A stretch of 64,000 nucleotides of DNA from Gluconacetobacter tumulisoli (lineage in GTDB: Bacteria; Pseudomonadota; Alphaproteobacteria; Acetobacterales; Acetobacteraceae): contig NZ_JABEQM010000007.1 in assembly GCF_014174155.1 (NCBI RefSeq), forward strand, positions 124,001 to 188,000, in the 5' to 3' direction. The notes beneath the pieces are model-generated. The model was not told where the DNA came from, did not search any database, and saw only the letters and a program-made list of their open reading frames with translations. The position numbers and the translations under genes were made by a program. Positions 8,850-25,814 of this stretch are shown here, piece after piece; positions within the stretch are counted from its first letter, which is position 1, and each line of letters starts with the position of its first letter.

Positions 8850-10541
8850 ATGATTTCTCGTCGTCCGTTCGCAGCCCTGATTCCCGTCGTGGCCCTTGCG
8901 ACGCTGACGTCCGCGCACGCGGCCCCGCCCGCGTCCTCCCCCTGGGCGCCGGTCGATCCGGCCCGCATGTCGGCCGCGATCGGCACGCTTGCCTCCGACG
9001 ACTTCCAGGGCCGTTCCCCCGCAACGGAAGGCGAGGCCCGGACGGTCGCCTGGCTGATCGCACAATATCGAAAGATCGGGCTGGAACCCGGTGGCGAGGC
9101 CGGCGGCTGGACCCAGGAGGTGCCGCTGCTGCGGACACGGATCGGGACGCCGTCGCGGCTCGACGTCACGATCGGCGGGGCGGCCATGCCGCTGGAGCTG
9201 AAGAAGGACGTCTATCTGGCGACCCTGTCGCCGGTCGAGCGGATCCGGATCGATTCCGCGCCGATGGTCTTCGTGGGGTATGGGGTGCATGCACCCGAAC
9301 GCCAGTGGGACGATTATAAAAATGTCGATCTCAAAGGCAAGATTGCCGTCTTCCTGATCAACGATCCGGATTTCGACGCCAGGCCGGGCGAACCCGTCGC
9401 CGGACGGTTCGGCGGCCGGACGATGACCTATTACGGCCGCTGGACCTATAAATATGAGGAGGCCGCGCGGCGCGGCGCCATCGGCGCGCTGATCGTGCAT
9501 GATACGCCGGGCGCCTCCTATCCCTGGACGACGGTGATCGCGCCGGGTGGCGAGGCGTTCGATATCGTGCGCGACAACACGACCGACAGGCCGGTGCCGC
9601 TTCAGGGCTGGCTGGAAGGCGACGCCGCGACGCGCCTGTTCGCCCGCGCCGGACTGGACCTGGCGACCCTGCGCGTGAAGGCGCGCGACCCGGCGTTCCA
9701 GCCCGTGACGATTCCGGGCGCGACCCTGACCGCGGATGTTCCGGTTTCGGTCGCCCATCTGCGCAGCCACAATGTCATCGGCAAGCTGACCGGCGCGAAA
9801 TATCCCGGCGAGACCGTCATGTACGGCGCACATTGGGATGCCTTCGGCGTCGGTACCGACACGCAGGGCCGGCCGGTGATCCGGCGTGGCGCCATCGACG
9901 ACGGGTCGGGAATCGCCGCCGTCCTGGAAATCGCCCGTGCGTTCAAGGCCGGTCCGAAACCGGCCCGGACGGTGATGTTCGCGTCCTGGACGGCCGAGGA
10001 ACGCGGGTTGCTGGGTTCGACATGGTACGCGGCGCATCCGCTGGCGCCGCTGGCGAAGACGGCGGCGAATTTCACCATCGACGTGCTGCAGATGGCCGGC
10101 CCCGCCCATAATGCCTTCGTCATCGGCGCCGGGCAGGACAGCCTGCAGGACGACCTCGCGACCGCCGCCGTTTCGCAGGGTCGCACCGTGCAGCCCGAGA
10201 CCCGGCCCGAACGCGGCGCGTTCTATCGCGCCGACCATCTGCCCTTCGCCCGCGCAGGCGTGCCCGTCGTCGCAATGATGGACATGGCCGGCCCCTACGA
10301 CCTTCTGTCGGGCGGGGTCCCGGCCGGCGAGGCATGGCTGAAGGCCTATATGGCCTGCTACCATCAGGCCTGCGATGCCTGGAGCGCGAACTGGGACCTG
10401 CGCGGCGCGGCCGAGGACGCGGCGCTGGTCTACCAGGTCGGGCGCGCTGTCGCATTCTCGCATGACTGGCCGCAGTGGAAGGCGGGCTCCGAATTCGCCG
10501 CCATTCGCGCGGAGAGCGCTGCCGAACGGGGTGGGGAGTAA
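8850..10541 (+). CDS. M28 family metallopeptidase with PA-like insert, exported
   Basis: A 563-aa exported zinc aminopeptidase-like protein. The signal peptide ends near ALATLTSAHA. A protease-associated-type region occupies roughly residues 130-290. The M28 catalytic core follows: MYGAHWDAFG (about 325), RRGAIDDGSGIAAVLEIARAF (about 343-363) and SWTAEERGLLGS (about 378-389). The later acidic and His ligands are near YRADHLPFARAGVP. ATG 8850 is preferred over ATG 8841 because the GGAG at 8837 is then correctly spaced. It is likely periplasmic or secreted. It pairs with the upstream M20 gene, but each has its own repeat-type 3' hairpins. Confidence 0.88.
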   Translation: MISRRPFAALIPVVALATLTSAHAAPPASSPWAPVDPARMSAAIGTLASDDFQGRSPATEGEARTVAWLIAQYRKIGLEPGGEAGGWTQEVPLLRTRIGTPSRLDVTIGGAAMPLELKKDVYLATLSPVERIRIDSAPMVFVGYGVHAPERQWDDYKNVDLKGKIAVFLINDPDFDARPGEPVAGRFGGRTMTYYGRWTYKYEEAARRGAIGALIVHDTPGASYPWTTVIAPGGEAFDIVRDNTTDRPVPLQGWLEGDAATRLFARAGLDLATLRVKARDPAFQPVTIPGATLTADVPVSVAHLRSHNVIGKLTGAKYPGETVMYGAHWDAFGVGTDTQGRPVIRRGAIDDGSGIAAVLEIARAFKAGPKPARTVMFASWTAEERGLLGSTWYAAHPLAPLAKTAANFTIDVLQMAGPAHNAFVIGAGQDSLQDDLATAAVSQGRTVQPETRPERGAFYRADHLPFARAGVPVVAMMDMAGPYDLLSGGVPAGEAWLKAYMACYHQACDAWSANWDLRGAAEDAALVYQVGRAVAFSHDWPQWKAGSEFAAIRAESAAERGGE

Positions 10542-11884: not shown

Positions 11885-12103
11885 ATGAAGCGCACGTTGC
11901 CGTTTCTGTGCGGCCTGGCCCTCCTGGCCGGATGCGCCTCGCCGCCTCCGGCACGCGACGATGATGGCCTGCCCGTCATCGACGGTCCACGCGGAAACCG
12001 CTCGGCCGGCGGCAGGGGAGGCGGCCAGGGCGTCTGGTCCGATATTCTCCGCACCGCCATGCAGACGGGCATGCAGGCCGGCATGGGAATGCTGCACCAT
12101 TGA
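11885..12103 (+). CDS. Small lipoprotein, unknown function
   Basis: A 72-aa protein with a clear lipoprotein signal MKRTLPFLCGLALLAGCASPPP (lipobox LAGC, Cys near residue 17). It is followed by a Gly/Arg-rich stretch and a Met-rich tail (MQTGMQAGMGMLHH). The in-frame extension upstream to 11720 has no signal-like sequence, so ATG 11885 is the start. It is convergent with the TonB receptor gene, whose 3' end is 58 bp away. Probably anchored in the outer membrane; no known family recognised. Confidence 0.55.
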   Translation: MKRTLPFLCGLALLAGCASPPPARDDDGLPVIDGPRGNRSAGGRGGGQGVWSDILRTAMQTGMQAGMGMLHH

Positions 12104-12161
12104 TCGCATCCGGAAGCTGACAGGCCCCGCGGATGGTCCGGCGCAAGCTTCTCCGGCCCAT

Positions 12162-14597
12162 TCAGAATGACGCGCTGACGGTACCAAAAAACTGCCGGAC
12201 CGCGCCGCGCTCCAGCGACTGATAGTCGCCGCTCAGCGGGTTGCCGTTTTCGCCCATCATCGAAATATATTTCGTATTCAGCAGATTATAGACGTTGAAC
12301 CCGACGGACAGATTCTTCAGCGGCCCGTACTCTCCGAAATGGTACTTCGCCCCGAGCGTCACGAGCCAGTAAGCGGGGACGGACGTATCGTTAACGTAGG
12401 AGAAATAGCGTTTCGAGTAGTAATTGGCGTCGATATGCGCTTCGGCGCCTTTCCAAGCATAGCTCAGGCTGGCTTTGTACATGACCTGCGGAAAATTGAC
12501 GACCTTCTTGCCCTTCATGGCGTAGACGGCGTCCGGTTCAACGAGGTCGCGACCGTAGGTGGAATGATTGTAGCTCACGCTGTTGTAGATGGAGAGGCCC
12601 CGGAACGGTCGAAGGGTCAGTCCCGCGTCCATCCCGTACATCGAGATGCTGCCGGTATCGACCATGGTCGTGATGGGGAAATTCAGCGTGCCCTCCGTCG
12701 CCTGCTGAAGCCTGTGGCGGACGTCGGCGTGATAACCGTCCAGCGAGGCCGTCACGACAGGCGAAGTGTAGCGGTATCCGACGAGGTAGACCCAATCCTT
12801 TTCCGGTTTAACCGAATGCTGGAGCGTCCTGAAGGCGTCCTGATTCTGCACGCCCCAGAGCGAGCCGCTGCCCCAGGGCGCGACGGCATAGCCCCGCATG
12901 TTCTCGGCCACGTCGAAATACAGTTCGTGACCGGGGAGAAACCGCCAGTTCGCGCTGACGTTGGGCAGGAAGGCGGACGCGGCGGTCATGCCGCCGTTCG
13001 CCAGCGCGGCCTCACCGGTGTAATCGGTGTTGTTGTAATTCGCACCGCCCGACGTGCTGACGATCATGCTGCGGAACCCGGCGTGGATATCCAGGTTTTT
13101 CAGGACATGATAGGTATCTGCCAGGAAATACTGGAAGGTGTTGGTCGTCCATTTGAAGTCATAGGATGTCAGGAAGGCAGGACCGTACGTGTTGTACGGC
13201 CCTACGGTCTTGAGCGGCGCGCCCTGTCCCAGAAGCGGCTCGTTGAAGAAATACTGCCCTGATTCCTGATTGTTGTTTTCCAGCCAGATTCCGGTGTTCA
13301 AGCTGTTGCGCGCGATGTCGTAGCGGACGGCCGATGTCATGCCGTAGCGGACCTCCCGCGATTCCCATACCTGTTCCGAGAAGGGGGCCCCGGTGGCCGA
13401 GGGCTGCCACGGATCGCCGTAGGTGGTGTAGAGGACTTCGCTGTTTCCATAGAAGTTGGTTTGCCAGCGCAGGTGATCGGTCATCTCGAAATCGAGATTG
13501 AGCGCGCCGAGATAGGAAACCTGATGCTGCCCGCCGTCATAGAGGCTGACCGACCAGGGTTCCTGACCGGTGATCTTGTCGTATCCCGGCGGAAGGTAGG
13601 TTCCCTGGGCGACGTGATAGGCGGTGGCGTAGTCGGGATAGAAATACTCCGTGCGCCAGCCAAGCTTGTTCAGGATTTCAAGAGACTGGTCGGCATAACC
13701 CCACTGCGAGTTGTTCGACCAGTTCATGAAGGCGGACACCCTGGACGCGTTATTGACGGGCTGGACAAGCTTCGCCTCCGCCTGTTGCCCGAGCTGGTTG
13801 CCGTAGCCCTTCCATTTCTGCGTGTCGGAGCGTGCATAGGCCAGGTACATCTTCGTGCCGGTCCGGTTCATCGCGCCGGTGTCAAAACGGCCGTACGTCC
13901 GGAAGGAGGAATTGCTTCCGAAAACCTGCGACACTTTTCCGCCCATTTTATCCGCCGGGTCGTCGCTGACGAAGCGGATCGCACCGCCGAGATTGGTGTT
14001 CGACGGAACGTCGACGGCGCCGCCGCCCTGGGAGACCGACATAAAGCCGATATCATCGGTGATGATGGCCTGGCTGACATTCAGGCCGCTGATCGTATTG
14101 TAGGACTGATCATTAAGCGGGACGCCGTCGAGCGTCATGCCCAGCCGGTCCCAGAAGAAGCCACGCATGTAGAGGCTGCTCGACCAGGCGTCGAGCCCCA
14201 GCGCGTCGCTGGAACTGAAGCTGAGGCCCGGCGTGCGGGCGGCGAGGATCTTGAGCGGGTTCGTGCCTTCGACGAACTGTTCCATGACGGCCTTGCCGAC
14301 GGCTTCCTCGCTGCCGTGCGAGACCGCACGGCTGGTCTGCACCACTATGGATTCGCTGTCCGGCCTCGGTGCGGCCGGAGGCATATGCCGTGTTCGCGCG
14401 GCTGCGTTCGGGCGAGCGGCAACCGGACCGGCCGCTGCCGGTCCGGGATGATGCCGATGGGATGTCGCGGATGCCTGGGGAGACATGGTGGCAGCCCAGG
14501 CGGTGGACGTGAGAAGCACGGCCGAGCAAATGCCTGTGGAGCAGCGAACGAGCAGGCATGACGACAGGCGCGACGTCGCGCGGTGAGTATATGCCAT
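12162..14597 (-). CDS. TonB-dependent outer-membrane receptor
   Basis: An 811-aa outer-membrane gated channel. A signal peptide (about MAYTHRATSRLSSC to AWAA) is followed by a Pro/Ala/His-rich linker. The plug domain spans about residues 85-215 and includes the SSLYMRGFFWDRLGMTLDGVPLNDQ segment typical of plugs. A 22-strand barrel follows, ending in aromatic Phe (VSASF). ATG 14597 is preferred over the longer frame because it yields the signal peptide and has AGGG upstream. It lies 67 bp downstream of the spermidine-dehydrogenase-like gene on the same strand, so it may belong to that operon and import a polyamine-related ligand; the ligand is inference. Confidence 0.9.
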   Translation of the reverse strand: MAYTHRATSRLSSCLLVRCSTGICSAVLLTSTAWAATMSPQASATSHRHHPGPAAAGPVAARPNAAARTRHMPPAAPRPDSESIVVQTSRAVSHGSEEAVGKAVMEQFVEGTNPLKILAARTPGLSFSSSDALGLDAWSSSLYMRGFFWDRLGMTLDGVPLNDQSYNTISGLNVSQAIITDDIGFMSVSQGGGAVDVPSNTNLGGAIRFVSDDPADKMGGKVSQVFGSNSSFRTYGRFDTGAMNRTGTKMYLAYARSDTQKWKGYGNQLGQQAEAKLVQPVNNASRVSAFMNWSNNSQWGYADQSLEILNKLGWRTEYFYPDYATAYHVAQGTYLPPGYDKITGQEPWSVSLYDGGQHQVSYLGALNLDFEMTDHLRWQTNFYGNSEVLYTTYGDPWQPSATGAPFSEQVWESREVRYGMTSAVRYDIARNSLNTGIWLENNNQESGQYFFNEPLLGQGAPLKTVGPYNTYGPAFLTSYDFKWTTNTFQYFLADTYHVLKNLDIHAGFRSMIVSTSGGANYNNTDYTGEAALANGGMTAASAFLPNVSANWRFLPGHELYFDVAENMRGYAVAPWGSGSLWGVQNQDAFRTLQHSVKPEKDWVYLVGYRYTSPVVTASLDGYHADVRHRLQQATEGTLNFPITTMVDTGSISMYGMDAGLTLRPFRGLSIYNSVSYNHSTYGRDLVEPDAVYAMKGKKVVNFPQVMYKASLSYAWKGAEAHIDANYYSKRYFSYVNDTSVPAYWLVTLGAKYHFGEYGPLKNLSVGFNVYNLLNTKYISMMGENGNPLSGDYQSLERGAVRQFFGTVSASF

Positions 14598-14664
14598 GAT
14601 TATTACCCTATCTTTGCTGCGGCGGGACAGCGCGGGATGTCGAAACGTTCGGAGACGTGTCTTT

Positions 14665-16542
14665 CTAGGTATAGCCCCGGCTGACCAGGCATTCCTGGAC
14701 AGCGCGTTCCGCCTCGTCGATTGCGATATTCGTAAAGGCCGACGCACCTGAATCCGCGTTGGCGATGGCGATCCGGCCGAAGGGGCGGCGGCCGACGACA
14801 TGCGGCTGTTCGGCCTCCGGGAATTCGGGGTCGCCAAGCGTGTCGTATGTGTATGCGTATCCATGCGGCCACCGGTTGACGGTCAGGCCGAGGATGTCCT
14901 GTTCCTCGTTGAAACCATGCGGTCCGAAAATGCGCTGAAGCTGCGCACGCGTTTCCTTCTCTATGGTCTCGAACGATGTCGCGAGCATTTCCGCCCGGCC
15001 CATGCGGTTCTGTTCCTTGCGCGGATGGCCGGGAAAATTCGGATTGCGCAGCATGTGGAGCGTGACGGGCTCGTCGGGCGAAAGTACTGTCTCGAATGCG
15101 CCGAAGCGCGCCGGGCTGTCGAGAAGCAGGTGCTGATAGTAGCCGTGCGGAACGCTGAGGCTGCTGATGCCGGCCTGCTTCCAGGCACGCCAGTTGCCGA
15201 GGACGACGCTGGTGTACATCATCGGCACCTTCGACGGATATTTCAGCGCCTCTTTCTGAGGGTCGGGCAATTCCGGAACGATGTAGGGAATGATGTTGTT
15301 GAAGCAGGCCAGGACCACGTTCTCGGCCGTGACCGCATGGCGTGCCGGGTCGGAGCCGTCCGGCTTCTGATACACGATACGCACCGGCGCCTTTCCGGCG
15401 GCCTTGTCCTGCGCGCTGGCCCCCCCGACATGTTCGACCCGCACAACCATCTGTCCGAGCCGGATGCGGACCGGCGATCCGGCCCTGTCCAGTTCGCCGT
15501 AATCCGCCTGCGCCGTTACGATGCTTTCCATGTTCTGCGGCGTTCCGAAGACTGCGGAAACCAGCTGGCTGACGAGCAGGCGGGCGATGGAGGCGTTGCC
15601 ATCGGGGAAATGAAAGACAGGGGAATCGTCGACCGGGTCCTGCTCGATCCCCATGCCCGCGAAGCCCGGCGCGCCGTAGCGCATGGCCATGAAGGCGGGA
15701 CAGCTGTCGACACGCATGTTGTTGCGATATCCGTCGCCATGGAAGAAGGCGACGGCCTGGTCGGGCAGTTTCGCGTAGTTTCGAAGAAAGGTTTCATAGC
15801 TGATGGATTGCAGGAGAACCCGGCGGGCCCGCGGCGTCATGCCGGGCAGGAAGTTGACGCGCGGGTCGTGCAGATGGATGAGCGCCCGGCGGGACGGTTC
15901 GTCCAGCGGGGCGTCCTTCCAGAACGACGCCGGTGCATTCGGTGTATAGCCCGCCAGGATGCGATCGGCCGTGAAATGGTCGCTGTCGAAGAAGACACCC
16001 CGATTCATGCCGGAGAATATCCTGGGCTGCTCGATTCCGCCGGTGCGGGACAGGTCGACGCCGAGCTCGGAAAGCAGCGACTTTGCCGTGAAGCTGTAGG
16101 GGAAGGGCGATTCGATGCTCATCGTGCCGCCATAGGACAGCAGCGTGCGCCCCTGGATGCGGTACTCGTTTCTTTTGGCATGGCCGCCGAAATCGTCGTG
16201 ATTGTCGATGACGAGAACGCGCGTGGCCGGCCCGAGCGCGCGACGATAGAACCAGGCGGCGCTGAGCCCGGAAATTCCGCCGCCGACAACGACAAGATCG
16301 TAATGTTCGCCGGTGTCGCGGGCCTGAACGGGCCCGGTGAAGCCGCCGTCGCGTGCGACATGGGCGATTTCGAACGAACCGGGATACTGGCCGCGCAGAC
16401 CCTGCTTCAGCGGCGGATCGTCGGCGCGGGCGGTGGTGGAATCCGCTGCCGAGGCGGCGTATGATCCGCCCAGCAGGCCGGAGAGCGTGACGGCGGAGAC
16501 ACCGTTTATGAAGTCTCGTCGTGTTATGGAGGATCTTTTCAT
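14665..16542 (-). CDS. Tat-exported FAD-dependent oxidoreductase, spermidine dehydrogenase-like
   Basis: A 625-aa flavoprotein resembling SpdH-type spermidine dehydrogenases, which cleave spermidine to an aminoaldehyde and diamine and pass electrons to an acceptor. A twin-arginine signal ITRRDFINGVSAVTLSGLL is at residues 6-24. The FAD Rossmann motif DLVVVGGGISGLSAA is at 82-96, followed by NHDDFGGHAKRNEY (114-127). A C-terminal FAD contact region reads GRRPFGRIAIANADS. AGAGG precedes ATG 16542. It is a tandem paralogue of the next gene upstream, and the two share motifs throughout. Export to the periplasm suggests feeding electrons to the respiratory chain. Substrate assignment rests on family resemblance. 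Confidence 0.8.
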   Translation of the reverse strand: MKRSSITRRDFINGVSAVTLSGLLGGSYAASAADSTTARADDPPLKQGLRGQYPGSFEIAHVARDGGFTGPVQARDTGEHYDLVVVGGGISGLSAAWFYRRALGPATRVLVIDNHDDFGGHAKRNEYRIQGRTLLSYGGTMSIESPFPYSFTAKSLLSELGVDLSRTGGIEQPRIFSGMNRGVFFDSDHFTADRILAGYTPNAPASFWKDAPLDEPSRRALIHLHDPRVNFLPGMTPRARRVLLQSISYETFLRNYAKLPDQAVAFFHGDGYRNNMRVDSCPAFMAMRYGAPGFAGMGIEQDPVDDSPVFHFPDGNASIARLLVSQLVSAVFGTPQNMESIVTAQADYGELDRAGSPVRIRLGQMVVRVEHVGGASAQDKAAGKAPVRIVYQKPDGSDPARHAVTAENVVLACFNNIIPYIVPELPDPQKEALKYPSKVPMMYTSVVLGNWRAWKQAGISSLSVPHGYYQHLLLDSPARFGAFETVLSPDEPVTLHMLRNPNFPGHPRKEQNRMGRAEMLATSFETIEKETRAQLQRIFGPHGFNEEQDILGLTVNRWPHGYAYTYDTLGDPEFPEAEQPHVVGRRPFGRIAIANADSGASAFTNIAIDEAERAVQECLVSRGYT

Positions 16543-16599
16543 TTCGGAAACCTCTTTCCACGGGTGATGCACTGTCGCCTGCCGGGGCGGGCATCCGGT

Positions 16600-18645
16600 T
16601 CAGAAGGTGGCCGGACCGGGGGATGGCGGGACGAAGGGAAAAACCTGGCGGTCGAGCAGTTCGGCGACGGCGCGATGAGCGGCCTCGAACGCGGCGTCGG
16701 TATGGGGACTGGCGGCGGAATCCGCATTGGCGATGGCGATGCGGCCGAAGGGCTGGCGGCCGGTGACGCAGGGGCGGCTTTCCGATGCGGTGAAAACCCA
16801 TTCGGGCGGGTCGTAGAGACTGTTGTAGGTATAGGCGTAGCCGTGCGGCCAGCGATTGACGGTGATCGCCGCGATGTCCCTGTCCGCGTCGAAGCCGCCT
16901 GGTCCGAGGATATGTTGCAGTTGTCCCCGTATTTCCCTCTCGAAGGTGTCGAAGGAGGTGGCAAGGAGCATGGCGCGGCCGGCGCGATGCTGATCGCGTT
17001 TCGTCGGCAGGCCGGGCGCCCCGAAGGTCTTGATCATGCGCACGACGTTCGGCATCGCGGGGTCGGATGGCGCCTTGAGGCCGCCGAGCGACGCCGCTTC
17101 GGCAAGCTGCACCTGTTCGAAATACAATGTCGGACAATCGACCTCGGCGACACGAAGTTCATGAAAGGCGCGCCAGTTCCGGATCGCGACGTTGGCGTAG
17201 ACGATCGGCCCCTTGACGCCGTAGGCGAGGGCGTCCTTCTGATGCGCCGGCATGGTCGGCACGAGATAGGGGATGACCATGTTCCAGCAGGCAAGCACGA
17301 CCTGCCGGGCGCGAATGCGGGTGATCGTATCCGGATGCGGGTTGCCGGCCGGGGCGCAGAGGATGGAGACGGTTTCGGCCTGATCGGGCGGCCCGTCATG
17401 CGCGACGTTCAATGCCAGGGTGGACAGGCGGATGCGCGTCGGATTGCCGGCGAGATCCAGCCTCGCATAGTCGAATGTCGCCGTTCCCATCTCATCCTGG
17501 GTCCGCGCCCTGGTGGCGCCAGGGACGAGCGAGGCGACCAGGAGGCGGGCCAGGGTGGCGTTTCCGTCCGGAAAATGCACGGACTCACCGCTTTCGGCCT
17601 GCCTGCCGTGCTGTCCGCCGGGAAGATCGGACAACAGGCCTTCGGGCAGTTCACCCAATCCGAGGCCGGAAAAACCGGGATAGCCCATCGCCCAGGCAAA
17701 CAGGGCCGGCATGGCATCGGCGCCGACACAGAAGACGCCCGCCCCGGCCTTGCTGAAGATCCACGCGACGGACGGATCGACCTTGGCGCAATCAAGCAGA
17801 TAGCGGTCGTAGGCCATGGTCGCGAGGCGCTTCTTCTTTTCCGCGACGCTGGCACCGGCGAGATAGTCGGGTTGCCGCGACGCCAGCAGCCTGGCCAGAT
17901 CGGCGCGGGCTTTTTCGCCGAGCGGCGCGTTCGCGACGAAATCGGGGCCGAAGCCGTACCAGGATGTGCCGGGCGGGACGTGTCTGGGAACGAGTGCGTC
18001 GGAGGCCCAGCTTTCCCGGTCGAAGAAAAAGGCGCGATCCATGCCGAGCCGTTCGTGCAGGCCGGCCTCCCGCCGGTTCTCGCGCAGGTAGGCGGAAATA
18101 TCGACACCGATCTCGTCGAGTATGCGTTTTGCCCATTCGTTGTAGCGGGCAGGGGATTCGATTTCGAGCGTGCCGCCGTTGAGGGCCAGGAGGCGGCCGT
18201 CGACGACGAATTCGTTGCGTTTGGCGTGCCCCCCGAAATCATCATGATTTTCGAGGATCAGGACGGATTTGCCCGACCCTGCGTAGCGGTGGAAGAAATG
18301 GGCGGCGGCCAGGCCGCTGAGGCCGCCGCCGACCACGACGAGATCGTAGAGTTCGCCGTCGTCGTGCCCGCCGGTCGGCCGAAGGGTACCGTCGCGCAAG
18401 GCATGGGCGGCTTCGAACGCGCCGGGATGGCTGCCGCGCAGGCCGGTCCTGCGGGGCGGCGGCACGCTGTCCGGGTCGGTGGCGCCGAAAGCGGGGAATA
18501 TGCTGCAGGAGACGGTGGCGCATGCCGCGGCAGTCGTGACGCCGTTGATGAAATCCCGTCGCGTGATCGCGGGCCTTGTGGTCGTGGACCTTTGTCCTGA
18601 CCCGGGGGGCGGGCATCCGGGCCTTGGATCGGGTCGGTCGGACAT
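16600..18645 (-). CDS. Tat-exported FAD-dependent oxidoreductase, spermidine dehydrogenase-like paralogue
   Basis: A 681-aa paralogue of the 14665-16542 protein with the same order of parts: Tat motif ITRRDFINGV near residue 27, FAD motif DLVVVGGGLSGLAAAHFF, NHDDFGGHAKRNEF, and the C-terminal GRQPFGRIAIANADS. The N-terminal region before the Tat motif is unusually long and Pro/Arg-rich. ATG 18645 has GGAG about 10 bases upstream; ATG 18666 is an alternative with AGGA very close. The gene is divergent from the XRE-cupin regulator. Sequence between the paralogues differs enough that distinct polyamine substrates are likely, but this is inference. Confidence 0.78.
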   Translation of the reverse strand: MSDRPDPRPGCPPPGSGQRSTTTRPAITRRDFINGVTTAAACATVSCSIFPAFGATDPDSVPPPRRTGLRGSHPGAFEAAHALRDGTLRPTGGHDDGELYDLVVVGGGLSGLAAAHFFHRYAGSGKSVLILENHDDFGGHAKRNEFVVDGRLLALNGGTLEIESPARYNEWAKRILDEIGVDISAYLRENRREAGLHERLGMDRAFFFDRESWASDALVPRHVPPGTSWYGFGPDFVANAPLGEKARADLARLLASRQPDYLAGASVAEKKKRLATMAYDRYLLDCAKVDPSVAWIFSKAGAGVFCVGADAMPALFAWAMGYPGFSGLGLGELPEGLLSDLPGGQHGRQAESGESVHFPDGNATLARLLVASLVPGATRARTQDEMGTATFDYARLDLAGNPTRIRLSTLALNVAHDGPPDQAETVSILCAPAGNPHPDTITRIRARQVVLACWNMVIPYLVPTMPAHQKDALAYGVKGPIVYANVAIRNWRAFHELRVAEVDCPTLYFEQVQLAEAASLGGLKAPSDPAMPNVVRMIKTFGAPGLPTKRDQHRAGRAMLLATSFDTFEREIRGQLQHILGPGGFDADRDIAAITVNRWPHGYAYTYNSLYDPPEWVFTASESRPCVTGRQPFGRIAIANADSAASPHTDAAFEAAHRAVAELLDRQVFPFVPPSPGPATF

Positions 18646-24732: not shown

Positions 24733-25422
24733 TTACGACATCACCACCCCATGCTGGCGCAGGAAACCCAGCAGCTTCAGAAGCGGCAGGCCGAGGATGG
24801 CGGCGTGCTCGCCCTCCACCCGGTCGAACAGATGGACACCGCGTCCTTCCAGAAGGTAGGCGCCCACAGACGACAGGATCGCGTCGCCCTCGGCTGTCAG
24901 GTAGCGGTCCAGGAACGCCTGGGAAAACGGTCGCATCGTCAGTTCCGGCCGCGCGACGTGATGCCAGATCGTCTGGCCGCCCCGCCGGACGACGACCGCC
25001 GTATGCAGCACATGCGTCCGTCCCCGCAGCCGCAGCAATTGCGTCCGCGCGCCGTCGCGATCGGCGGGCTTTTCGAACCATTCGCCGTCGCAGGCCAGGA
25101 TCTGGTCGGCGCCGATCACCACCGCGTCAGGCACCACCGCATCGGAATTGTCGATGCGCCGCGCCTTCATTTCGGCCAGCAGCAGGGCTGCATCGTCCGG
25201 CGACGCACCTTCGGCCAGCGCCGACTCCCGAATGGCGTGCTCGTCCACGCGGGCGGGGCGGGATTCGATGTGCAATCCCGCCTGTTCCAGCAGAATCCTG
25301 CGGGTTCGGGACTGGCTGGCCAGTACTATCCGGGGCGACTCGGCCTGTAACAGGACGGGGGGCGGTACTAATGACGAGTCGCTCAAGATCCGTGTCTCCG
25401 TACTGCGATAATCAAACGGCAT
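24733..25422 (-). CDS. maf: Maf-like nucleoside triphosphate pyrophosphatase
   Basis: A 229-aa Maf/YceF-type protein that hydrolyses non-canonical or modified nucleotides. Motifs: IVLASQSRTRRILLEQAG near residue 34, the ARVDEHAIRESA segment, VIGADQILACDGEWFEKP near 105, and the C-terminal GAYLLEGRGVHLFDRVEGEHAAILGLPL. ATG 25422 adds about 30 residues before the usual Maf N-terminus, so an alternative downstream start is possible. The 5' part lies inside the GTAC-rich origin-like region. maf beside hemE at the origin is a known alphaproteobacterial arrangement. Confidence 0.9.
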   Translation of the reverse strand: MPFDYRSTETRILSDSSLVPPPVLLQAESPRIVLASQSRTRRILLEQAGLHIESRPARVDEHAIRESALAEGASPDDAALLLAEMKARRIDNSDAVVPDAVVIGADQILACDGEWFEKPADRDGARTQLLRLRGRTHVLHTAVVVRRGGQTIWHHVARPELTMRPFSQAFLDRYLTAEGDAILSSVGAYLLEGRGVHLFDRVEGEHAAILGLPLLKLLGFLRQHGVVMS

Positions 25423-25780
25423 ATCCGGCCCGGATGAGTACTGGGGTACATGGGGATAGTACTCCGGACGCTTCTTGGCCGTACCGAGTACCGTGGACAA
25501 CGTCCATCGGGCTCCGTACGGTGGGTTGTACACAGCGCCTTGTCGGTAGTTTCTGGATAAGTTCGATAACCCCTTGAAGATCAGGCGCCTGCAAACTGTA
25601 CACCCTGTGGGAAAGACGGGGTACGTTTTTGGAAACGTGGGTACCCCGTCATCCACAGGCCCTATATCCCTCTACAGCATTTCTTTCTTCTTATTTCATG
25701 TTTAGAGGTAGGACCCGAAACCTGGTGACGGCGTACCGGACGTTTGCCCGGGTCCTGTCATCTTCCGAGAAAGTACGGGA
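25320..25780. other. Putative chromosomal replication origin (oriC) with GTAC cluster
   Basis: The maf-hemE intergenic region plus the maf 5' end. DnaA-box-like 9-mers: TCTGGATAA (25552-25560, 8/9 to TGTGGATAA), TCATCCACA (25649-25657, 8/9 to TTATCCACA), CGTGGACAA (25492-25500), TGTGGGAAA (25606-25614) and TTGTACACA (25526-25534), the last three at 7/9. An AT-rich tract (about 25672-25708) could be the unwinding element. The tetramer GTAC occurs 15 times between 25323 and 25776. Origins next to hemE are established in alphaproteobacteria such as Caulobacter, and parAB/parS lie about 20 kb away. The intergenic part, about 390 bp, has no gene. Confidence 0.65.
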
Positions 25781-25814
25781 TATTCCCGCAATGACAGGAA
25801 CGAACGACGAGGCG

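Follow-up and report, generated by a model that had tools for sequence, protein, structure and literature searches.

Why should a four-letter word, GTAC, accumulate within less than half a kilobase beside hemE of an acetic acid bacterium? The locus lies in a 64,000-nucleotide stretch of a Gluconacetobacter tumulisoli contig (the window, whose positions are used below), and the HemE protein encoded there comes closest to that of Gluconacetobacter (97% for G. johannae). We hold, with moderate confidence, that the region between maf and hemE is the replication origin, oriC, and that a putatively orphan methyltransferase (the enzyme) methylates its GTACs and thus controls access of DnaA. Given that in the genomes sampled the GTAC array occurs only together with the enzyme, acetic acid bacteria may time replication by chemical marking of the origin, as E. 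coli does with another word and another enzyme.

All 15 GTAC coordinates listed in a first-pass annotation of the window are exact (25323, 25365, 25400, 25438, 25446, 25459, 25481, 25488, 25516, 25528, 25598, 25621, 25641, 25733 and 25773). Together the sites form an array at 25323–25776 that is not assigned to a strand. Its placement between maf and hemE applies to twelve of them. The likely 5' end of maf, a gene for a Maf-like protein (PF02545; 24733–25422, minus strand, likely start 25422), covers the first three (25323, 25365, 25400); these are not strictly intergenic because a candidate maf ATG is located at 25422. On the opposite side the array region is adjoined by hemE, encoding uroporphyrinogen decarboxylase (PF01208; 25791–26876, plus strand). 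The excess over chance, estimated earlier against about two expected sites, is borne out by the rest of the window, from which 0.55 GTACs are expected per 461 bp. In 5000 draws from a first-order Markov model built on the region's own sequence, the count averaged 3.7 GTACs and never exceeded 12, and the second densest of the non-overlapping 461-bp stretches of the window holds five. Among all tetramers of the window GTAC ranks first when the count in the densest 461 bp is divided by expectation. When the forward strand of the 3.96-Mb draft genome was scanned for three GTACs with gaps of 0 to 30, six of the 26 matches were located at the array, where overlapping matches peaked; at most two overlapped at any other place.

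Several features of the region fit an origin. DnaA-box-like elements, also proposed in the first-pass annotation, are present and several are conserved, but a canonical box is not among them. The region contains no TTATCCACA, and its sole match to TTNTNCACA is TTGTACACA, a DnaA-box-like 9-mer at 25526–25534 (plus strand) that holds a GTAC and is identical in 73 of 73 aligned loci. Further box-like elements are TCATCCACA (25649–25657, plus strand, one mismatch to TTATCCACA), TTATCCAGA (25552–25560, minus strand, one mismatch), and TTTCCCACA (TGTGGGAAA on the plus strand; 25606–25614, minus strand), which has two mismatches and a mean identity of 91% in the 73 loci. The proposed AT-rich tract is real: positions 25655–25715 (no strand assigned) have a GC content of 41% as compared with 67% in the window and represent a candidate unwinding element. 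The run TAG-AGG-TAG, a possible set of DnaA-trios, is found at 25703–25711; in its exact form it is not kept even in G. diazotrophicus. CtrA sites have the motif TTAA-N7-TTAA. Positions 25300–25800 contain no TTAA and therefore no such site; CtrA sites are a trait of Caulobacter, and we do not take them as defining for all origins. According to the available text of PMC1914354, the origins of Caulobacter and Rickettsia lie beside hemE. The region studied here shares with Caulobacter Cori (hemE-COG1806) the linkage to hemE and an AT-rich region, and it has DnaA-box-like elements as counterparts of the DnaA boxes of Cori; it differs in that maf is the other flank.

GC skew supports the neighbourhood rather than the exact spot, since the minimum or switch lies near but off the array. 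In 144 kb of the array's own contig the cumulative minimum is located near window position 9000, about 16.5 kb from the array, and the skew to the left of this minimum is nearly flat. A segment at 12000–18500 is AT-richer, has positive GC skew and contains local clusters of GTAG and TAGG; it may be a recent insertion that possibly shifts the apparent minimum. In a complete genome (G025), sampled in 16 stretches of 20 kb, skew rose from −0.21 at 1.73 Mb over 0.00 at 1.80 Mb to +0.15 at 1.85 Mb, with hemE at 1.875 Mb. It was −0.01 at 2.00 Mb and positive again in the samples that follow. The switch lies 30–130 kb from hemE, and the two samples flanking dnaA (0.60 Mb) are both negative without a sign change. 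Taken together, the hemE neighbourhood, the conserved DnaA-box-like elements, the AT-richer tract and the nearby skew switch support the reading of the region as oriC that the first-pass annotation had put forward.

In E. coli, dnaA is also under the control of SeqA. Upstream of dnaA no GTAC cluster was found in 27 genomes (at most 2 per 460 bp; the upstream stretch was short in G060, G066 and G029, with 76, 511 and 148 bp). A paper on Acetobacter cerevisiae KSO5 (2026) predicts oriC near dnaA, as stated in its available text (PMC13209655). It assigns oriC to the maximum and dif to the minimum of the skew. The two would then be separated by about 51 kb of a 3.26-Mb chromosome, which looks inconsistent.

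The array is widely conserved in Acetobacteraceae. Among 80 named hemE loci of the family, the best 80 of 201 confirmed ones, 72 carry it, with 6–16 GTACs within 621 bp around the hemE start. The other eight (six from Bombella, one from Parasaccharibacter, and strain B3987) have 0–3. In an alignment of the window with the 72 array-bearing loci, identity to the window amounts to 84% in GTAC columns, 68% in the 4-bp flanks of the sites, and 50% elsewhere. The sites at 25446, 25528, 25621 and 25641 are kept in all 73 loci; poorly kept are 25516 (7 loci), 25733 (10), 25773 (27) and 25323 (29). Twelve representatives drawn from eight genera or lineages delimit a conserved core at 25438–25660 (no strand assigned) in which 25446, 25481, 25528, 25598, 25621 and 25641 are invariant, while GTACs of one representative or another occupy 31 distinct alignment columns. 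Within the core 6 of 10 GTACs are invariant versus 3 of 155 tetramers that do not touch a GTAC, columns not being independent of each other. The array thus consists of a rigid core with turnover of sites outside of it. Core spacing (8, 13, 22, 7, 40, 70, 23 and 20 bp) is the same in Gluconacetobacter, Komagataeibacter and most Acetobacter, and the same to within 1 bp in Gluconobacter oxydans.

In three genomes (G032, G118, G101) that encode the enzyme and lack an array at hemE, the array is found 20–26 kb away on the same contig and, by eye, shares local motifs with the hemE-linked ones. Therefore it is not tied to hemE regulation; it follows a locus, not hemE. Part of the core is a 29-bp element, GGGTACRTTT-N10-GGGTACCCC (25619–25647, plus strand), which comprises two GTACs at fixed spacing. 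Of 150 genomes, 26 carry it, in a single copy; each of the 26 encodes the methyltransferase, and two of them are among the three genomes with a relocated array. A reversed control pattern had no match in the 150 genomes.

The genome contains three PF01555 methyltransferase genes. The candidate for the array codes for a protein of 287 amino acids (L116:1474-2337; PF01555 match with E 1.2e-45) and is located on another contig than the array, between mltA and a gene for a di-haem peroxidase; a nuclease gene is not among these immediate neighbours. Orthologues were detected in 71 of 150 genomes of the family (E ≤ 1e-30). In a class-wide sample with a threshold of E ≤ 1e-60 only 4 of 385 genomes were positive, all four being Acetobacteraceae. 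In the best 30 of the 71 orthologues TSPPYN is present without exception, and mltA adjoins the gene in 24, with one of the six exceptions located at a contig end. Two copies of the methyltransferase gene are present in G534 (C1:413763-414569 and C1:2003393-2004202), the products being 69% and 55% identical to the query. The other two PF01555 genes were set aside as the array enzyme: the CcrM-like L115 scored 614.5 bits against the NCBIfam CcrM model, which has a cut-off of 830, and L117 lies, by eye, beside a ParA-like gene.

Co-occurrence of enzyme and array was assessed in 142 of 145 genomes with a hemE match (three with partial matches were left out), taking the largest number of GTACs per 460 bp within about 1.6 kb upstream of hemE. 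The cut-off of at least five sites was set after the counts were known, and a threshold-free test was therefore run alongside. Arrays were present in 36 of 68 enzyme bearers versus 0 of 74 non-bearers; among the latter the largest count was four, reached by five genomes. Ignoring kinship, Fisher's test gave p 7e-15 (36/68 versus 0/72, two stretches below 500 bp being dropped) and the threshold-free Mann-Whitney test p 2e-12. Thirty-two of the 68 enzyme bearers lack an array of at least five sites at hemE, or 29 after counting the three relocated ones. These three came from genome-wide scans of six such bearers; in the remaining three (G049, G067, G010) a genome-wide pattern with gaps of 0 to 24 detected none. 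Given such bearers, another role, or an earlier one, has to be assumed for the enzyme.

A midpoint-rooted HemE tree was built from 90 of the 142 genomes, chosen to include every array bearer; the 52 genomes off the tree comprise 49 non-bearers and 3 enzyme bearers, and the array clade could include some of them. One branch (SH-aLRT 99) sets off this clade of 39 genomes, in which the array is present in 36 of 36 enzyme bearers (relocated in three) and in none of the three nested non-bearers (G066, G029, G116). The latter, scanned genome-wide, contain no array but only scattered single matches and, in G116, a GTACT microsatellite (G116:C1:536876-536914); the methyltransferase was not found in that genome. 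The three may go back to one single loss. Eight independent pairs contrast in the presence of the enzyme; in about three of them the array differs in the same way, in none in the opposite way, and in about five not at all. The tree-corrected p is 0.125–0.25 when starting from the enzyme and 0.125–0.5 when starting from the array, so that the corrected association alone is not significant. Sister genomes with and without the enzyme can have similar small counts (G017 5 and G108 4; G033 4 and G119 4). Outside the clade the last 700 bp upstream of hemE contain on average 2.25 GTACs in 32 bearers versus 1.09 in 68 non-bearers (three short stretches dropped; p 8e-5, kinship ignored). Because most bearers outside the clade lack an array, the enzyme may predate it. 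By eye, the enzyme gene is located 5–9 kb from hemE in five of the non-clade genomes (G010, G064, G067, G109, G143).

What does the enzyme methylate? RsaI cuts GTAC and ScaI cuts AGTACT, and a TSPPY motif suggests N4-methylcytosine (m4C) as the product. The nuclease partners of its relatives are informative here. In Synechococcus phage ACG-2014j a homologue with 43% identity overlaps a gene deposited as R.RsaI endonuclease, and viral homologues that are 40–47% identical to the enzyme often adjoin a gene of this name. When viral contigs were searched with the R.RsaI gene, a homologous methyltransferase adjoined it in 7 of 7 loci (two cut by a contig end). In the reverse search, with the Acetobacteraceae enzyme as query, 31 of the 80 best loci had a homologue of the R.RsaI gene upstream of the methyltransferase gene; in one of the 31 it lay 1.2 kb away, and in the others it overlapped or lay at a distance of about 100 bp or less. 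The other 49 showed no R.RsaI-type neighbour. Nor did the homologue in phage ACG-2014f, where an Eco57I-type methylase comes next. R.RsaI is the depositor's name, and for the one nuclease tested Pfam, PHROGs, PADLOC and PDB yielded no match. A distant homologue on an E. coli plasmid (29.5%) is encoded beside a ScaI-family nuclease, confirmed as RE_ScaI (PF09569). For a Paracoccus plasmid homologue (55.7%) no nuclease is listed alongside in a gene table that is incomplete. From the nuclease partners we infer that the enzyme probably methylates GTAC, and probably as N4-methylcytosine. Of the three roles suggested earlier for the array (target of a dedicated regulator, methylation signal, orientation signal), methylation thereby gains specific support, in that a putatively orphan methyltransferase of an RsaI-/ScaI-associated family co-occurs with it. 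As an observation in its own right, R.RsaI-like and methyltransferase genes form a compact pair on the viral contigs (L353-L386, L423).

M.RsaI itself makes m4C at GTAC (PMC6256690), and HG10 and HG18 are archaeal orphan methyltransferases that do so as well (available text of PMC10609329). Compared by description only, the enzyme resembles all three in its presumed target word and in a TSPPY motif consistent with m4C; as a difference, no nuclease gene lies directly beside its own.

The array clade is also set apart by its DnaA boxes. Each of the 33 clade bearers whose array lies at hemE has TTGTACACA; in the 800 bp upstream of hemE, TTATCCACA was detected in just one of the 36 clade bearers. 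The three nested non-bearers show the reverse (TTATCCACA in 3/3, TTGTACACA in 0/3); in G066 the region upstream of hemE (L182) contains 14 perfect TTATCCACA boxes, several of them closely paired, and no GTAC. Of the genomes outside the clade, 32 bearers and 71 non-bearers, only one has TTGTACACA, a bearer; TTATCCACA was found in 6 of these bearers and 22 of these non-bearers (28 of 103 genomes). Canonical boxes are uncommon there too, and what distinguishes array genomes is therefore not the lack of such boxes but the GTAC-containing TTGTACACA. In 19 array-clade sequences, out of 27 DnaA sequences found in all, we inspected stretches of DnaA domain IV which we take to be in contact with DNA: ARPRQ and NRDHTTV are unchanged in 19/19 and SLPEIG in 18/19. 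An altered DnaA specificity was rejected on the basis of the first two; given the conserved domain IV stretches, specificity has probably not moved. The two non-bearers inspected deviate slightly, with SLPDIG in G066 and ERDHTTV in G029. To judge from these sequences, change seems to have affected the boxes more strongly than DnaA itself.

The array itself and its conservation, the co-occurrence of array and enzyme across genomes, the nuclease pairing of the enzyme family and the GTAC-containing box are all direct results of computation. On this basis we propose the following model. The maf-hemE region would be the chromosomal origin and the array a set of methylation sites resident in it. The PF01555 orphan methyltransferase would methylate the GTACs in vivo, probably to N4-methylcytosine. 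Passage of the fork would leave all sites of the array hemimethylated together, and hemimethylation might alter the assembly of DnaA, or of a putative reader protein, on the origin. The most direct effect would be expected at TTGTACACA, where DnaA-like box and GTAC coincide. Such a hemimethylation switch would help to limit initiation to once per cycle. It is tempting to go further and to speculate that the origin is licensed by N4-cytosine methylation, that its boxes were rewritten as TTGTACACA, that DnaA directly reads the replication age of the origin without a SeqA-like protein, and that loss of the enzyme goes together with loss of the array, canonical TTATCCACA boxes taking its place; to this extended version we give tentative credence at most.

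Other explanations of the array deserve consideration. It might be a platform for a dedicated origin protein that reads unmodified GTAC, the correlation with the enzyme being due to shared ancestry. The rigid core spacing across genera indeed suggests a fixed nucleoprotein complex and not a bag of methylation sites, and the phylogeny-corrected association with the enzyme is weak. We nevertheless consider this unlikely: flanks vary more than the sites and site positions turn over, as expected for a bare 4-bp target, and the nuclease partners tie the enzyme family to GTAC independently. That the GTACs are mainly variant DnaA boxes, and that DnaA of the clade uses GTAC-centred sites, is improbable. 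Only one of the 15 GTACs of the window fits TTNTNCACA, and the domain IV stretches are conserved in the array-clade sequences displayed; what speaks for this idea is TTGTACACA, present in each of the 33 clade genomes whose array lies at hemE, together with the near absence of TTATCCACA there.

Two further proposals deny the array a role in replication. That the maf-hemE region is a conserved regulatory region and not an origin is very improbable. The skew minimum at a distance of 16.5 kb and the oriC placed by dnaA in KSO5 (PMC13209655, available text) speak for this proposal; against it stand the arrays located 20–26 kb from hemE in three genomes, the 14 perfect DnaA boxes upstream of hemE in G066, and the skew in G025, which changes sign within 130 kb of hemE and not across dnaA. 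We give hardly any credit to the array as a relic of restriction protection or avoidance. Although the enzyme family takes part in restriction-modification-like pairs in viruses, the enzyme gene studied here is flanked by mltA and the di-haem peroxidase gene with no nuclease gene directly beside it. Its linkage to mltA in 24 of the best 30 of 71 orthologues shows a stable chromosomal gene, and restriction leaves a single cluster at a single locus unexplained.

Compared with known systems, our preferred reading, an origin methylated at GTAC, has precedents. Outside the Dam-bearing bacteria, the prevention of re-initiation is to our knowledge largely open. Control of the origin by Dam and SeqA is well established and, in the available text of PMC4285127, described as exclusive to a few Dam-bearing proteobacteria. 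According to the same text, SeqA acts at E. coli GATC sites that overlap DnaA sites. Common to both systems are a short palindrome enriched at the origin along with a methyltransferase of that word (GTAC being the presumed target here), and an invariant array site inside a DnaA-like box matches the overlap of GATCs with DnaA sites (PMC4285127). By contrast, the word here is GTAC and not GATC, the enzyme belongs to PF01555 and probably makes m4C, and no cluster is present upstream of dnaA. GATC is not enriched in the region, with two copies in 25300–25800.

Clusters of orphan-methyltransferase motifs at putative origins were described by Blow 2016 (PMC4752239, available text) for GATC, for TTAA in Arthrobacter, for CTCGAG in Nocardia and for an m4C motif of Haloarchaea, which is given as CATG in the text and as CTAG in a figure legend. 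The array resembles these cases in being an orthologously conserved motif cluster at a putative origin that co-occurs with an orphan, here putatively orphan, methyltransferase (PMC4752239). It differs in motif, enzyme and taxon, in its location at hemE instead of dnaA or orc1/cdc6, and in the invariant site within a DnaA-like box. Neither GTAC nor Acetobacter appears in the main text of Blow 2016. As far as the available text of that paper (PMC4752239) allows comparison, the general kind is known and the GTAC case would be a further member of it, with the GTAC-containing DnaA-like box and the fixed 29-bp twin-site element as distinctive features. Among the entries listed by a literature search of openly accessible main texts, we found no report of a GTAC cluster or of GTAC methylation at an origin of Acetobacteraceae.

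If the proposed model is true, it would add a second, apparently independent system of origin methylation, in a genome that also contains a CcrM-like gene. Acetic acid bacteria are easy to grow and are used industrially. A natural experiment is offered by the lineage in which enzyme and array are both missing and the DnaA boxes are canonical. A minor observation concerns the contig of the array itself, which also carries four GTACs within 40 bp at G000:C7:40773-40812.
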